64,000 nt of DNA from an uncultured Candidatus Melainabacteria bacterium (GTDB lineage Bacteria; Cyanobacteriota; Vampirovibrionia; Gastranaerophilales; Gastranaerophilaceae): contig CATLFB010000001.1 of the NCBI GenBank assembly GCA_949927415.1, forward strand, positions 310,001-374,000. The letters are read 5' to 3'. The notes beneath the pieces are model-generated. The model made no database searches and was not told where the DNA came from. It was given only the letters and a program-made list of their open reading frames with translations. Made by a program: the position numbers and the translations under genes. Below, piece after piece: positions 7,869 to 50,644 of the stretch. Numbering within the stretch: position 1 is the stretch's first letter; each line of letters begins with the position of its first letter.

Positions 7869-7922
7869 ATGCATAGAGAAGACAGTTTTATTACTTGCCC
7901 CCCCCCCCGTCAAATCCGCTAA
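7869..7922 (+). other. Leader reading frame containing the C11 tract (pilin out of frame)
   Basis: An ATG at 7869 is preceded by a strong Shine-Dalgarno (GGAGG at about 7859-7863). As assembled it encodes MHREDSFITCPPPRQIR and stops at 7920-7922. With one C fewer (or two more) in the 7898-7908 tract, the frame runs on through 34 open codons into the pilin frame at 8011, giving a protein of about 310 residues. The leader is therefore probably the true 5-prime end of the pilin gene in a phase-OFF state. Confidence 0.65.
7898..7908 (+). repeat. C11 homopolymer tract, putative phase-variation switch
   Basis: Eleven consecutive C residues on the coding strand, within the leader and 103 bases before the continuous pilin frame. 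Length 10 or 13 would place the leader ATG in frame with the pilin; 11 does not. In a low-GC genome such a run is not expected by chance. This is the only tract of the set that is C, not G, on the coding strand. Confidence 0.8.
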
Positions 7923-8010: not shown

Positions 8011-8802
8011 GTGAAAAAGAGCATTAATTTGTCATTGCGTCAGAGGGCATTTACAATGGCTGAGGTTTTGATAACCCTTGGCATCATCGGGATTGTTGCG
8101 GCACTGACAATTCCCCAGTTGATAAAAAATCATGAGAAGCGGGTTTTGCACACGCAATTTCTCAAGATGTACAGCGATTTGAACAATGCCGAAAAACTTT
8201 TTGAGGCAAAAGAAAACATTACGGTGCATGAATACAGCAAAAATCTTGGCGACCCACAAGCCGGCACAGAAGAAATGGAATCAACATATATGTTGAAACT
8301 TTTTATGCAATATTTTAACGGGCAGGCTGGCGCAACAGGCTCTATGAGTAATACAGAAGAAGGCGAATATAGAAAAGATGTATACAAACGGATGCTCGGA
8401 TACATTCCGGCCGCACTGAACGGATCTAATACATCATCTCAACCCTGCGATGAAAGTATAATTATGAGCGACATTGCAGGAAGATTTTTTGTAATGGACA
8501 ACAACCTGACAGGCGTGGTCGCAAATGCTCCGAACGGTCCTAAAATATGCGTTGACACAAACGGCAAAAAAGGCCCGAATAAATACGGCTATGACTGGTT
8601 TGTATTTACATTTACATCCAAAGGAACGGTTATTCCATACATTGGAAACAGCTTAACATCTTATGGAGCGGATTTGGAAGACCCGTCAACAGAATGTTCT
8701 TATTCAAGAAATTCTGCAACTTACACCTGCGGATATTACGCGCTTTCCGACACTCGTCCTGACGGAGAGGGCGGAACCTACTGGAAAGATTTCCTGAAAT
8801 AA
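8011..8802 (+). CDS. Type IV pilin-like protein, class B (phase-OFF leader)
   Basis: Secreted or surface pilin-like protein with a prepilin peptidase site RA/FTMAEVLITLG (Glu at +5; Ala in place of Gly at -1), one N-terminal hydrophobic helix and a C-terminal globular domain. That domain carries DTNGKKGPNKYGYDWFVF and ends TYWKDFLK, the class B form also seen at 28583 and 46257. The given start is a GTG at 8011 with no Shine-Dalgarno. The better start is the ATG at 7869, separated from this frame by one extra C in the tract. Pilus subunit, pseudopilin or surface adhesin cannot be told apart here. A strong terminator follows at 8841. Confidence 0.8.
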   Translation: MKKSINLSLRQRAFTMAEVLITLGIIGIVAALTIPQLIKNHEKRVLHTQFLKMYSDLNNAEKLFEAKENITVHEYSKNLGDPQAGTEEMESTYMLKLFMQYFNGQAGATGSMSNTEEGEYRKDVYKRMLGYIPAALNGSNTSSQPCDESIIMSDIAGRFFVMDNNLTGVVANAPNGPKICVDTNGKKGPNKYGYDWFVFTFTSKGTVIPYIGNSLTSYGADLEDPSTECSYSRNSATYTCGYYALSDTRPDGEGGTYWKDFLK

Positions 8803-24373: not shown

Positions 24374-25186
24374 TTAATAACTAACTCTAAACGGATAGTC
24401 TTTTGGGATTTTCCAGCCGTTACTCTGAATAAGTGCAGCACAATAATAAGATGCCTTAATATTACATCCTGTGTATGAGTATTTATCAACTCCGCTATAT
24501 AGACTTTCGCTTTTGCCATCCCATGCAAACTTATACGGTTCAAAACCTCTGCCTTTATGATATATAAAATCAGTATTAGTTGTCGATAAAGGGTAATATA
24601 AAAAAACAAACGCACATTTTCCATACGCATTGGATAAAGAACCATACTTCTTTACACATCTATCAGGATCTCCCGTGAAAAATATCCAATCCCGCATATA
24701 ATCTGTCTGTAGAGCCATAAGCCCACTTCCGTCAGCAAAAAAGAATATTGGCTTACCATCTTTATCATACTTAACCTGAACAGTCCTCATATTAGGAGCA
24801 ATATAACGATTCCACCAGATTTCAACTTCTGACGCGCCTTTAACAAGGTTTCCTTCTTCGTCATAAACTATTTTCTGCTTATCCTGATACCATTCTTTCT
24901 TGTCGCCATAGGTAACTTCAGCCATCATGACAGCCTGATTTATTGAAGAATAGAATTTTGCAAGACGCGTTTCTACAACCCTGTTTGCGTTGCTCTGAAT
25001 CAGAGCCGGCAAAGTCATTGCCGCAACTATCCCTATTATACCAAGCGTAATCAAAACTTCTGCTAATGTGAAAGCGCATCTGACTGATGTTACACGATTA
25101 TATTTTTCCGGTACGCACATCAAAAAATGCCGGAAAATATTAATCTTTGCAGCGCTTGAATGGCAAAAACTTTTACCGAATGTCAA
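24374..25186 (-). CDS. Type IV pilin-like protein, class A (phase-OFF leader)
   Basis: Pilin-like protein with CA/FTLAEVLITLGIIGIVAAMT, the prepilin processing site and helix. The globular part has FFADGSGLMALQTDYMRDWIFF and ends IQSNGWKIPKDYPFRVSY (class A). The listed start is a weak TTG at 25186. A well-formed start lies upstream at 25259 (AAAGGAG, 6 bases, ATG), but a G12 tract leaves it one base out of frame; with 11 or 14 G residues the frame is open throughout and gives about 294 residues. The leader before the cleavage site would then be about 60 residues, far longer than usual for prepilins. Confidence 0.8.
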   Translation of the reverse strand: MTFGKSFCHSSAAKINIFRHFLMCVPEKYNRVTSVRCAFTLAEVLITLGIIGIVAAMTLPALIQSNANRVVETRLAKFYSSINQAVMMAEVTYGDKKEWYQDKQKIVYDEEGNLVKGASEVEIWWNRYIAPNMRTVQVKYDKDGKPIFFFADGSGLMALQTDYMRDWIFFTGDPDRCVKKYGSLSNAYGKCAFVFLYYPLSTTNTDFIYHKGRGFEPYKFAWDGKSESLYSGVDKYSYTGCNIKASYYCAALIQSNGWKIPKDYPFRVSY

Positions 25187-25202
25187 AAACCTTGCAGGAG
25201 CG

Positions 25203-25259
25203 TTATTTTCGGGTGCCCCCCCCCCCCGGAAATCCAGTCATAGTGAACATTTTAAACAT
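25203..25259 (-). other. Leader reading frame containing the G12 tract
   Basis: An ATG at 25259 follows AAAGGAG at ideal spacing. As assembled the leader is MFKMFTMTGFPGGGGTRK and stops at 25203-25205. Its first 30 bases are close to the leaders at 29483 and 50672 (Met-X-X-Met repeats, then TGF or EF, then glycines), so it belongs to the same cassette. Confidence 0.7.
25216..25227 (-). repeat. G12 homopolymer tract, putative phase-variation switch
   Basis: Twelve C residues on the plus strand (G12 in the coding sense) inside the leader of the pilin gene at 24374. After the tract the pilin frame is open without a stop (APENNAPARFLTFGKS). Length 11 or 14 would be ON; 12 is OFF. Confidence 0.82.
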
Positions 25260-25343
25260 TTTCATCTCCTTTAAAATTACATTCTTAATATATTATTTGA
25301 ATTCGATTTTTGCTTATCTGATGCCGCAGGAACATATTAAAGT

Positions 25344-27938
25344 CTAAATTTCACAGTCATCACTTACAAAAAGATTCAGCTGCGGAACTTCCAGTTCAAT
25401 ATTTTCAACCTTTTTGCGTGTTGCAAGGTTGTTCGAAAAATCTTTCTGCATTTTGACCATCAAATCCTGCGAACGTCTGATTACAGTATTAGGCAGTCCC
25501 GCCATCTTCGCAACCTGAATACCGTAACTTTTGCTTGCGCCGCCCTGAACTATTTTGCGCAAAAATTCGATTTCTCCGTTTTCTTCGGTCACGGTAATTC
25601 TGTAATTCTTAATTTGCGGATATGAGTTTGTCATTACATTAAGTTCATGATAGTGGGTTGCGAAAATACATCTTGCTTTTATTTTTGTCGCGATATGTTC
25701 AGCAACCGACCAGGCAATTGCAACACCGTCGTAAGTGCTTGTGCCGCGGCCGATTTCATCCAGCAGTATAAAGCTTTTATCTGTTGCCGAATTGAGAATG
25801 TAGGCTGTTTCAATCATTTCAACCATAAATGTAGATTGCCCTAAGGTCAAATCATCTGACGCTCCCACACGTGTGAAAATCTTGTCAACAACGCCTAGTT
25901 TAAGGTAATCTGCCGGAACCCATGAGCCTATTTGCGCAAGCAATACGATTAATGCGTTTTGGCGCATATACGTTGATTTACCTGCCATGTTCGGTCCTGT
26001 CAAAATCATGAATTGAGTTTTGTCAGTTGTGTTGCTCTGAAGTTCAAGGTCGTTTGAAACATACTCGCCAAGCGGAAGAATTTTTTCCAGAACCGGATGG
26101 CGGCCGTTTTTCACAATGAAATCTCCGGAATCATCAATTTCCGGTTTGCAGAAGTTGTTTTCCGCAGCCGTTTGCGCTAATGATGACAATACATCGGCTT
26201 TTGCAATACAGTCTGCTATTTCTCTGATTTTTGAAACCAGATTTTTAGATTTTTCTCTGAAATCAGTGAAGATTTTATATTCAAGTTCTGTTGTTTTGAA
26301 TCTTGCAGACAGAACATCATCTTCATGTTTTTTAAGTTCTTCGGTTATATAGCGTTCAGCGCCTGTGAGGGTTTGTTTGCGGACATAATTTTCCGGAACC
26401 ATATTGCGGTAAGAATTGGTGATTTCGATAAAGTAGCCGAAAACTTTATTTTCGCCGACTTTCAAAGACTTGATGCCGGTTTTTTCGCGTTCTCTTTCTG
26501 CAAAATTAATCATCCACTCTTCGCCGTTGGTCAGCAAATCACGGTAATAATCAAGTTCGCCGGAAAAACCTTCTTTGATAATTCCGCCTTCTTTTATAAC
26601 CATCGGCGCGTCATCTTTGATTAAATTGTTTATTTCTTCAGCAAACGCCGTTATTTCTTCTTCGTAAGCAATTATACTTCTGAACGGGTTGTTTTGCAGT
26701 CCGCCCGAAATCTCTATTAACTCGGGAAGCATTTCCAAAGACGCCTTTAAACTCAAAAAGTCTTTCGGGTTTGCTGAATTGTTACTCAATCGGGTTGCGA
26801 GGCGCTGGATATCGTAGATTTTTTCCAGAACTTCTATTAATGAAACTCGGGTTGAGGCTTTTTCTACAAGTTCGGTTACGGCTCTTTGGCGAAGCATGAT
26901 ATCAGAAACCCTTTTCAGAGGCTGGCAAATCCAGTTTCTCAAAAGTCTTGCGCCCATGTTTGTTTTAGTCTGGTCAATAGCCCAGAGAAGAGATCCGTAT
27001 TTGTTCTTTTCGCGCATTGTCTCGACTAATTCCAGATTCTTTCTTGTTCCGGCGTCGAGAATCATGTATTCGGACAATTCATAGGCTTCTATACGCTCAA
27101 TTTTAGGGACATTTTCTTTCATGCTTTCCCAAACATAAGCAAGAAGCGCACCTGCTGCGCGAAAACCAAGTTTATATTTGTCATACCCGAAAGCCGTCAG
27201 CATACCCGGCGTAAAGACCGCCTTCAGATTTGAATCAGACATAGAATTTTCAAAAACATTTGAAGGGATTTTAGAGCAATTGTATGAATTAACAATTCCT
27301 TCAGGCAAATCGACTTTTTCTTCCGGTACAATTTGGAAAGGCTTAATTTCGCCGCGAATAGAAGGTGCAACGATTTCGGCGGGCGATATTCTTGCAAGTT
27401 CTGACATCAAAAGATTTAACGGCGCCTGCGTAACTTTAAATTCGCCGGTCGAAATATCGGAATAGGCAAATCCGTAAAGGTCGGATTTTTCATCCTTAAA
27501 CATTGCGGCAATATAATTGTTGGCATTTTGTTTCAGAAAATCGCTTTCGGTCAGTGTACCTGATGTTACAATTCTTGTTACACCGCGTTTTACAAGCCCT
27601 TTAGCGAATTTTGGATCTTCAAGCTGGTCGCAGAGTGCAACTTTGATATTTTTCTGAACCAGTTTTTCAAGATAACCGTTTATTGCTTTGTAAGGTATCC
27701 CGGCAAGCGGAATTCTGCCGTATTCGGAACCTGAGTCGCGGCCTGTGAGAGTCAGTTCCAGTTCTTTTGACATTAGAACTGCATCTTCGAAAAAGGTTTC
27801 GTAAAAATCTCCAAGGCGGTATAAAAGCACAGCCCCGGGGTTTTGGCGCTTAATCCGCATGTATTGCTGCATGACCTGCGTCAATTTTTCTATTTCTACT
27901 TCCCATGAATTTATTTGATTGATTTCTGATTTTGACAT
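25344..27938 (-). CDS. mutS: DNA mismatch repair protein MutS
   Basis: Recognises base mismatches and small insertion/deletion loops. The 864-residue protein is complete: the N-terminal mismatch-binding domain has YRLGDFYETFFEDA with the Phe-X-Glu-type motif, the core follows, and the ATPase domain has Walker A LTGPNMAGKSTYMRQ, Walker B FILLDEIGRGTSTYDG and the ATHYHEL motif. MutS is the protein that normally corrects slippage in homopolymers, so an intact copy bears on the stability of the G/C tracts in this window. The 3-prime end lies about 80 bases from the pilin leader at 25259. mutL is not in the window. Confidence 0.97.
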   Translation of the reverse strand: MSKSEINQINSWEVEIEKLTQVMQQYMRIKRQNPGAVLLYRLGDFYETFFEDAVLMSKELELTLTGRDSGSEYGRIPLAGIPYKAINGYLEKLVQKNIKVALCDQLEDPKFAKGLVKRGVTRIVTSGTLTESDFLKQNANNYIAAMFKDEKSDLYGFAYSDISTGEFKVTQAPLNLLMSELARISPAEIVAPSIRGEIKPFQIVPEEKVDLPEGIVNSYNCSKIPSNVFENSMSDSNLKAVFTPGMLTAFGYDKYKLGFRAAGALLAYVWESMKENVPKIERIEAYELSEYMILDAGTRKNLELVETMREKNKYGSLLWAIDQTKTNMGARLLRNWICQPLKRVSDIMLRQRAVTELVEKASTRVSLIEVLEKIYDIQRLATRLSNNSANPKDFLSLKASLEMLPELIEISGGLQNNPFRSIIAYEEEITAFAEEINNLIKDDAPMVIKEGGIIKEGFSGELDYYRDLLTNGEEWMINFAEREREKTGIKSLKVGENKVFGYFIEITNSYRNMVPENYVRKQTLTGAERYITEELKKHEDDVLSARFKTTELEYKIFTDFREKSKNLVSKIREIADCIAKADVLSSLAQTAAENNFCKPEIDDSGDFIVKNGRHPVLEKILPLGEYVSNDLELQSNTTDKTQFMILTGPNMAGKSTYMRQNALIVLLAQIGSWVPADYLKLGVVDKIFTRVGASDDLTLGQSTFMVEMIETAYILNSATDKSFILLDEIGRGTSTYDGVAIAWSVAEHIATKIKARCIFATHYHELNVMTNSYPQIKNYRITVTEENGEIEFLRKIVQGGASKSYGIQVAKMAGLPNTVIRRSQDLMVKMQKDFSNNLATRKKVENIELEVPQLNLFVSDDCEI

Positions 27939-28582: not shown

Positions 28583-29461
28583 CTATTTTGGCAAGTTTTT
28601 AAAATAATCTTTGTCGGTCAATGCGTTGTATGTACATCCTGCACCGTTCATACTGCCGGATGAAGAAGGTGAACAGTATGCAGCGGTTGAACTGTAATAA
28701 TAGGAATCAGGAACTCCCATTGGAAGAAGTTTTCCTTTTTCATCAATCTGAAATATGAAAAGGTCTTGCCCGAGCCTGTTGGGATTTTTGTTGTAGCCGT
28801 TAACATCAATTGAGATAAACAAAAATCTGCCGTTATCTTCCAGCAGAACCAAACTGCCGTCATTAAGCACGAACTGTCCGTCATCAAAGAAATTTAAGTT
28901 TATAGAATGACCGTTCAGTGTTTTGTATGTTTAAGAGTTGTTTTCGGTTGTTCCGATATTAACATAGTTTGGAATGCAAGTTTTTTTAATTGCTTCTGCT
29001 GAAGTTTCGGCACCTTCGCCGCAATCGCGTGCTATTTTGAAATATTTTATGAGTTTAGATTTTAATTGTAATTTTGAGCTGCTTAGCATTATGCGCTCGC
29101 CTGTTTCGGCTTGATACATATCAAGCGCCTGACTTATCAGAGAATACGACCTTTTCAAGCCTGCTTCCAGTTGTTTGTTGCGGCTATTGTTGATTACGGC
29201 AGGCAACGTCATGGCAGCAACTATTCCGATTACCCCAAGCGTAATAAGAACTTCCGCCAGAGTAAATGCAAGACGGCGATTGTTTAGAATATTGTCTGCG
29301 GCTGCAGGATTGAGTGCTAATGCAAACCTGTTTTTTAAAGTAGCATTAAGTTTTTCGTTTTTAAAAAAATATTTTTGTGAATCGGAGGCGTTTTTAAAAT
29401 AATTTCTGTAAAACCCTTTAAAGATGAGTTCAGCGACTGCCCCCCCCCCCCGCAAATTCAA
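28583..29461 (-). pseudogene. Type IV pilin-like gene, class B, with tract-OFF leader and internal stop
   Basis: The N-terminal part (28931-29461) has LA/FTLAEVLITLGVIGIVAAMT. An in-frame TAA at 28931-28933 ends it after GTTENNS. The same frame continues (YKTLNGHSINLNFFDDG) to 28583, with the class B features IDVNGYNKNPNRLGQDLFIF and DYFKNLPK. The upstream ATG leader at 29483 is one base out of frame because of G12. The gene thus has two lesions: a reversible-looking tract and a point nonsense mutation. The downstream sequence remains intact, so the stop seems recent, or may be an assembly error. Without both lesions the product would be about 299 residues. Confidence 0.75.
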
Positions 29462-46256: not shown

Positions 46257-47033
46257 CTACCATGGAAGATTTTTCCAGTAGGATTTGGAATTATCTTCCG
46301 GCGAAACATCGTTTACTGCATACCATGCACATCCCATTCCGTTTAGAAGCTGGGTTGAATTTTTATTACAGGGAAAGCCGGCTAAATGCACATTTGTTTC
46401 ATTTTCTAATTCCTCGTCAGTATATCTTCGGGATTCTTTTAAGGGTTTTATCTGGTCTGTAGAATCCATCACCCGAAACTCAAATATATCAAAACCAAGC
46501 CTGTTTGGTTTTGAATAAGGCCCGTTTGTATCAACATAAATTCGAATGTGATTCATGTTTATATGAATCCCTACACTGCTCCCGTCAGGCAAAACTTTCA
46601 CGGCCGTCGGAGCATCCTTACCGATATTTGAAGTAATTGTTTTTGTTTTAGTATAATTCGTCATCGGATACATTGATTTTTCATAAGTTTTCATGATTTT
46701 CAGATTATTATAGAATTCATCAATGAAACGCTTTGCCTCCGGGTACTCTACCCCGTTATAAGTAGCAAAAGCAGCACGAACATTTGAAACGCCAAGCGAG
46801 GCTTTTGTCATTAGATAGGCGTTAGAAATATTTGCATAAGATTTCTTGAGACCGGTCTGAAGAACTTTAGCCTGATAATTTTTTATAAGTTGAGGAATTG
46901 TCATCGAGGCAACGATTCCGATAATGCCGAGAGTAATTAAAACTTCCGCTAACGTAAACCCTAAAACCCTTGAAAGGAGCTTATTTTCGGGTCCCCCCTC
47001 CCCCGTAAATTCAGTCATACCGTACGTTTTCAT
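46257..47033 (-). CDS. Type IV pilin-like protein, class B, leader locked in frame
   Basis: A 258-residue pilin-like protein. The ATG at 47033 follows AAGGAG at 6 bases. The leader MKTYGMTEFTGEGGPENK matches the phase-variable leaders elsewhere, but its G run is broken by an A (G5-A-G6) and is in frame with the pilin. Gly at -1 and Glu at +5 are canonical (LG/FTLAEVLITLG). The globular part contains YVDTNGPYSKPNRLGFDIFE and ends SYWKNLPW (class B). This is the only member of the tract group expected to be constitutively in frame, and it shows what the ON form of the others looks like. Confidence 0.9.
   Translation of the reverse strand: MKTYGMTEFTGEGGPENKLLSRVLGFTLAEVLITLGIIGIVASMTIPQLIKNYQAKVLQTGLKKSYANISNAYLMTKASLGVSNVRAAFATYNGVEYPEAKRFIDEFYNNLKIMKTYEKSMYPMTNYTKTKTITSNIGKDAPTAVKVLPDGSSVGIHINMNHIRIYVDTNGPYSKPNRLGFDIFEFRVMDSTDQIKPLKESRRYTDEELENETNVHLAGFPCNKNSTQLLNGMGCAWYAVNDVSPEDNSKSYWKNLPW
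46993..47004 (-). repeat. Interrupted G tract (G5-A-G6), stabilised leader
   Basis: The plus strand reads C6-T-C5. The position is equivalent to the pure G12 tracts at 25216, 29440 and 50629. The single interruption should suppress slippage and the reading frame is ON. Confidence 0.8.
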
Positions 47034-49828: not shown

Positions 49829-50644
49829 TTACCAAGGATAATCTTTAGGAAACTTCCAGTTGTTATATTGTAAAAGCTTTGCACAATATGGTGCACTCGG
49901 GTTTCCTTTACGGCATCCGTAACGAGAATGGGTTATCAACTTTTCGTACGTCCCGTCCCAATTGAAAGCATAAGGCTCTACAGTGGTCTTACGATTCAAT
50001 GAGCGGTGAATAACGTTCCCGTCCTCATCCATACCGTCAATTTTATTAAACTGAAAAGCAAAAGAATTTCTTAAGCCCGGCTCATATTTTCCGTTTATAT
50101 AATAGACAATATCCCCGCCGTTTTGATCATATCTAAAAATAAACATCCCGCCTGATGTAAGGTAAACACAGACTTTATTCTCAATACAGTTGTCATAACG
50201 ATTATATTTCAGATGTGGCAGAAAATATTTGTTTAGAAATTCAAGATTTTCCTCATAAGTTAAATCTTTACGCTCACCCATCCAGTTTTCGACATCTCCG
50301 TATTCAACAATAGCAAATTGAACAGCATTATTAATCGTATTGTAAAATTTGTGAACCTTAGCGGCTGCCGCTTCTTTCTGCGCATTTCCAATGACCGACG
50401 GAAGAGTCATCGCAGCAACTATTCCGATGATTCCGAGTGTAATCAGAACTTCCGCCAAAGTAAATGCGTGCAAATATTTCCCTGCCGGATTATTTCCGTA
50501 CCCAATCCTTTTACTTTTAGCAAACGTAAATTCCTGCCTGTGATTATTCGAAAAACCACCGGCAAAATTCGCATTTTTCACTGATGCAAAACAGTTAAAA
50601 AACCCTTTAAGAGAGCAGTTACCGGACGCCCCCCCCCCCCGCAA
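49829..50644 (-). CDS. Type IV pilin-like protein, class A (phase-OFF leader)
   Basis: Pilin-like protein with HA/FTLAEVLITLGIIGIVAAMT. The globular domain has NGGDIVYYINGKYEPGLRNS and ends LQYNNWKFPKDYPW (class A). The listed start is a TTG within the tract region. The real start is probably the ATG at 50672, after TAAGGAG and a TTGCAT/TATAAT promoter, but G12 leaves it one base out of frame; 11 or 14 G residues would give about 280 residues. The stretch QEFTFAK ahead of the cleavage site resembles a decayed second copy of FTLAE. Confidence 0.8.
   Translation of the reverse strand: MRGGGASGNCSLKGFFNCFASVKNANFAGGFSNNHRQEFTFAKSKRIGYGNNPAGKYLHAFTLAEVLITLGIIGIVAAMTLPSVIGNAQKEAAAAKVHKFYNTINNAVQFAIVEYGDVENWMGERKDLTYEENLEFLNKYFLPHLKYNRYDNCIENKVCVYLTSGGMFIFRYDQNGGDIVYYINGKYEPGLRNSFAFQFNKIDGMDEDGNVIHRSLNRKTTVEPYAFNWDGTYEKLITHSRYGCRKGNPSAPYCAKLLQYNNWKFPKDYPW

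Follow-up and report, generated by a model that had tools for sequence, protein, structure and literature searches.

The locus raises the question of how a pilin gene could be expressed when the leader that carries its Shine-Dalgarno (SD) sequence and ATG is separated from it by a run of 12 G that sets the two in different frames. It lies in a window (the whole stretch of DNA analysed, 64,000 nucleotides) from a genome of the Gastranaerophilales, a non-photosynthetic cyanobacterial branch that is poorly represented in culture.

Anatomy of the cassette and its pilin

Reading the minus strand (Table 1), the frame opened by ATG 25259 translates as MFKMFTMTGFPGGGGTRK and ends at TAA 25203, exactly as the earlier note had described for a leader cut off from the pilin. 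The 12 G at 25227-25216 are followed by CACCCGAAAATAACGCTCCT, and frame reading confirmed that 11 or 14 G would rejoin the two parts: with one G fewer, or two more, the frame continues through GGGAPENNAPARFLTFGKS, opens into FTLAEVLITLGIIGIVAAM and runs to the stop at 24374. The length of the tract, which lies inside the translated region, thus sets the frame of the pilin, as in a contingency locus.

Table 1. Positions of the cassette, its pilin and the sibling tracts in the window
Feature	Position	Strand	Basis
Shine-Dalgarno AAAGGAG of the leader ORF	25266..25272	minus	sequence reading
Leader ORF, ATG (25259-25257) to TAA (25205-25203), cut short by the tract frame	25203..25259	minus	translation
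G12 tract, offset +1 (one base too long for the pilin frame)	25216..25227	minus	frame reading
SD-complementary arm GCTCCT downstream of the tract; in this copy CTCCT matches AGGAG over 5 bp	25196..25201	minus	
Pilin frame, last G of the tract to stop, without a strong start of its own	24374..25216	minus	
Prepilin N-terminal motif, TIGR02532 and PF07963	25010..25075	minus	profile search
Sibling G12 tract, offset +1 (read by eye), before the pilin frame ending at 28931	29440..29451	minus	
Sibling G12 tract, offset +1, before the pilin frame ending at 49829	50629..50640	minus	
Interrupted tract GGGGGAGGGGGG, locked copy; gene 46257-47033 in frame from its own ATG	46993..47004	minus	
Coding-strand C11 tract downstream of ATG 7869 (offset +1); the pilin frame it precedes ends at 8802	7898..7908	plus	

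The product of the 24374 gene carries the N-terminal methylation and cleavage motif of type IV prepilins, with matches to TIGR02532 (24.6 bits, cut-off 16.3) and PF07963 (21.2 bits, cut-off 21.2) and an alanine before the phenylalanine. By family it would be a type IV prepilin, presumably processed by a prepilin peptidase and assembled; it also contains the domain of unknown function PF20318 (DUF6613). The pilin gene faces a convergent queuine tRNA-ribosyltransferase gene, and a full-length gene for the mismatch-repair factor MutS (25344-27938) lies directly upstream of the cassette on the same, minus strand.

The pilin appears in the raw ORF list as an ORF starting with TTG. A start codon within the pilin frame was considered as a general rule and rejected, since many copies offer only CTG or TTG, and no SD close by, in the interval from the last in-frame stop to the tract, and leaders of the ATGACAGGACAAGGATTTA type in relatives (loci L134 and L141) have no start codon there at all. 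The 24374 frame itself contains an ATG at 25120 (MCVPEKYNRVTSVRCAFTLAEV) with no apparent SD; this ATG could yield some product irrespective of the length of the tract, which counts against a switch.

Sibling cassettes in the window and the genome

The window holds 19 overlapping matches to G8, in four tracts, against 0.24 expected, and the genome (2.18 Mb, 22 contigs) has 66 tracts of at least 8 G, which argues that these runs did not arise by chance. An open pilin frame follows 37 of the tracts of the genome. The earlier note had proposed a cassette shared with the locked copy on the basis of nearly identical sequence behind the two tracts, and this held: the window contains exactly two copies of ACCCGAAAATAA, at 25203-25214 and 46981-46992, both on the minus strand and followed by CGCTCCTGCAAGG and GCTCCTTTCAAGG, respectively. 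Moreover, comparison of the leader cassettes bore out the sharing more widely, because near-identical cassettes sit before dissimilar pilins: 18 of 435 cassette pairs were at least 80% identical, and in all 18 the pilin parts were less than 60% identical. The gene with the interrupted tract is open from ATG 47033 and reads MKTYGMTEFTGEGGPENKLLSRVLGFTLAEV.

The prepilin repertoire is very large for a genome of this size, with 81 matches to TIGR02532 at E ≤0.1, 79 of them above the cut-off; among the few proteins scanned, many carried PF20318 (DUF6613) or no other domain. Thirty-nine pilin regions that lack a long tract were read (38 and the copy at 46993), many with ordinary in-frame starts, several cut by contig ends and some without a clear start. 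A minor class of cassette has C11-C12 on the coding strand at offset +1 (7869-7908 on the plus strand of the window, and loci L034, L050, L052 and L059); its flanks on the opposite strand (GCTATTAGCGGATTTGAC-G11) resemble the leader of the G type, as if the cassette had been inverted.

Frame states in the genome, genus and family

Offset +1, meaning one base too many, was found in 32 of the 35 framed cassette-pilin pairs of this genome and +2 in the other three, none being in frame, while the 102 framed loci from other species of the genus comprised 78 at +1, 17 in frame and 7 at +2. Counted cassettes have an accepted SD and start and an open frame to the pilin motif; the own and genus counts omit 30 cassettes with a start but no such open frame, tracts without an accepted SD and start (e.g., L007, L008 and L011, the last being the window tract at 29440) and loci L150-L224. 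Seven genomes of other genera gave 59 framed cassettes, in a count that omits 22 tracts containing N and 16 without an open pilin frame; of the 59, 34 were at +2, 13 at +1 and 12 in frame. Both the genus and the family counts are samples, in which part of the listed places were taken as loci. In two of the genomes from other genera (G048 and G035) most tracts lack one G, G126 and G058 are mixed, and the three readable cassettes of G057 are in frame. In G057 many tracts were assembled with Ns in the G run (e.g., L353, L359 and L361), as if their length were unsettled, and in G037, from another genus, the G11 cassette stands as a short ORF of its own, and the pilins downstream of it have their own start (e.g., L354, L356 and L360). 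Most consensus states are therefore OFF, at a distance of about one G from ON in a direction that depends on the lineage.

The +1 bias is not merely a consequence of the typical length of 12, since +1 persists in 33 of 47 genus rows in which 12 G, the usual length, would put the flanking sequence in a different frame; within this genome, +1 occurs with tracts of 10, 11 and 12. Across the order, 72 of 146 genomes, representing 19 of 40 genera, have the pattern of SD, ATG and G10; 71 of these 72 are among the 124 genomes of the same family, and one is among the 22 from outside the family. The leaders of other genera differ from those of the genus studied here.

Within the genus, 23 pairs of G-tract pilins share at least 75% identity; tract length differs in 10 of these pairs and frame state in 11. 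Locus L069 and locus L142, for example, encode pilins 99.8% identical, the former at +1 with G13 and the latter in frame with G12. Length differences between close relatives thus come from these 10 of 23 pairs and from the mixed genome G126, and the 24374 gene belongs to none of the pairs.

Conservation of the cassette as nucleotides

The sequence CTCCT lies within 45 nt behind the tract in 92 of 132 G-tract rows, mostly at 13-16 nt, and its phase relative to the pilin frame varies over all three codon positions (41, 27 and 24). Complementarity of at least 6 bp between this arm and the SD was present in 14 of 30 rows of this genome and 68 of 102 of relatives, against about 1.4 and 2 with shuffled arms, and missing in 16 and 34, respectively, in a count that drops one row at a contig edge; in other genera it was present in 11 of 42 rows (about 1.5 expected) and missing in 31. 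Minimum-energy folds paired the SD with the arm in 72 of 129 cases against 60 of 645 shuffled ones. The inner pair, formed by the base that follows AGGAG and the one preceding CTCCT, covaries, with 49 of 59 able to pair against 38.3 expected and none of 5000 shuffles as high, and the outer pair of the hairpin showed no covariation (20 of 59 against 19.5 expected). All these arm and hairpin counts are inflated by the relatedness of the copies. Probably this arm forms base pairs with the SD and damps initiation.

Changes in the mature pilins fall mainly at the third codon position (1610, 685 and 3846 for positions one to three), indicating that the mature pilins are kept as proteins. Conservation of the leader as a peptide was unsupported in both sets, as differences across its codon positions were flat (149, 223 and 260 in this genome; 487, 726 and 575 in relatives), and those in the linker were flat as well (367, 388 and 461). 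This third-position bias in the pilins and its lack in leader and linker suggest that selection acts on the pilin at the protein level and on the cassette more at the level of DNA or RNA.

A candidate slippage switch and its alternatives

The anatomy, frame states, copy number and conservation of the cassette and the differences in tract length between relatives are direct observations. In our judgement the cassette is likely to be a slippage switch for the prepilin gene, with mostly OFF consensus states. Translation would start at ATG 25259 and, with 12 G, the ribosome would reach the TAA four codons behind the tract, so that the full pilin would not be made. Slippage on the tract would give rise to cells with 11 G, or with two G gained, which would make the prepilin with an extended leader. 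With dozens of prepilin genes nearly all OFF by a single G, each cell might show a small, changing subset of pilins. This reading is favored because tract length and frame differ among relatives and paralogs and because Bifidobacterium breve offers a precedent; the locked copy at 46993, which is in frame, also counts in its favor. We infer that slippage occurs within populations, that the pilins are expressed and displayed at the surface and that the hairpin has an effect. The lack of any in-frame copy in this genome and the 33 of 47 rows kept at +1 are unexpected under random switching and would have to be accounted for by a functional +1 state or by selection against ON cells. One such account, contraction-biased slippage with loss of ON cells, predicts +1 to be the more frequent OFF state of the genus and fails on the +2 majority in G048, G035 and G062.

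A working +1 state is what programmed recoding would provide: the out-of-frame gene would be the functional one, and pilin would be made when some ribosomes slip by +1 at GGG-G or CCC-C, or some RNA polymerases lose one base. We regard this as rather improbable, and it keeps weight chiefly because no copy of this genome is in frame. It would explain why +1 prevails in the genome and genus with tracts of G10-G15 and C11-C12 alike, and why, in 98 of 110 +1 rows, a 0-frame stop is found no more than 11 nt from the tract; such a stop occurs in 88 of 98 distinct arms against 51.5 expected under synonymous recoding (largest 64 in 300 runs), and tRNA-Gly(CCC) was not found among the 40 tRNA genes identified. 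However, the early stop is also explicable by shared descent of the cassettes, and a ribosomal shift needs only a few bases, yet runs of 9-13 are kept. In addition, relatives have in-frame copies and the offset is not constant across the clade, +1 being the state of most loci in the genus; the +2 majority and the in-frame copies of other genera argue against a +1 shift programmed family-wide and for variation in length. Phase variation by slippage therefore fits better than a universal programmed +1 frameshift.

Two further explanations seem to us far less probable. The tract copies might form a silent reservoir of unexpressed donors recombining into expressed, tract-free pilin genes, which would suit the near-identical cassettes before dissimilar pilins and the several pilin matches that have an ordinary start and no long tract; nevertheless, the tract copies retain an SD, an ATG and a full pilin ORF, none of which a donor needs. 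Assembly error is equally improbable: in that case tract lengths would be off by one and the genes really in frame. Long G runs are uncertain in short-read consensus, as the Ns within the tracts of G057 illustrate, and annotated lengths in B. breve differed from deep counts (PMC9187656). Against this, +1 holds for three tract lengths in this genome, and non-pilin tracts run in frame through their ORFs, most clearly in L221 (C13, with 108 codons before and 670 behind) and L220 (C11, 795 and 70), which makes a systematic overcall unlikely even though the non-pilin L224 (G11) is itself out of frame.

Beyond the slippage switch as such, we offer only tentatively, and with considerable doubt, a fuller scheme in which a portable cassette (SD, ATG, short leader, homopolymer, stop and SD-complementary arm) has been installed before dozens of prepilins. 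Nearly all would be held one base off, the hairpin and early stop would set the leak, and slippage in replication, transcription or translation would pick for each cell a few pilins at random out of a very large repertoire.

Comparison with known systems and implications

Among known systems, the opa genes of Neisseria carry CTCTT repeats in the leader and pilC a poly-G tract in the region of the signal peptide. There, as here, the frame of a surface-protein gene depends on a repeat close to its 5' end, in several independent copies per genome; the repeat or the proteins are others, with about a dozen opa copies at most, whereas the prepilins themselves are concerned here. Campylobacter and Helicobacter have poly-G and poly-C contingency loci and likewise combine many intragenic G/C tracts of about 8-12 with one small AT-rich genome, but their tracts lie in varied genes, not in one cassette before one protein family.

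A close likeness is found in B. breve, whose sortase-dependent pilus clusters bbr_0113 and bbr_1889 are described as OFF in most cells and turned ON by the loss of one G, with ON enriched in mice (PMC9187656). The two systems share a short upstream ORF with SD and start, a G10 or G11 tract, a pilin ORF without its own start, a majority OFF by one G too many and a gut commensal as host (PMC9187656). They differ in that B. breve has sortase pili, at most a few loci per genome and a Sec signal in the first ORF (PMC9187656), and the present genome has type IV prepilins, dozens of loci and a common cassette with an SD-complementary arm. In the open-access literature searched, poly-G pilin switches were unreported for Gastranaerophilales, Melainabacteria and Vampirovibrionia; the accessible part of one paper mentions pilA in a termite-gut relative and, there, no tracts (PMC5877343). 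What is novel here is the scale, with dozens of pilin cassettes, and the GCTCCT-like arm that complements the SD and is kept at the nucleotide level whichever of the three codon positions it falls in.

If the switch reading is right, gut Gastranaerophilales run a very large phase-variable set of surface genes from a single protein family with one standard switch, and this would account for the mis-started or split appearance of such pilins in raw ORF lists. To our knowledge, the set would rank among the largest phase-variable surface-gene sets. Besides, the near-uniform state of one base off raises the question of whether most cells are piliated at all.

Homopolymers are also found outside the pilins of this genome: five non-pilin genes (L219, L220, L221, L223 and L224) have C11-C13 or G11 inside their ORFs, all but L224 in frame, and a wider set of tract genes in the genome is likely.
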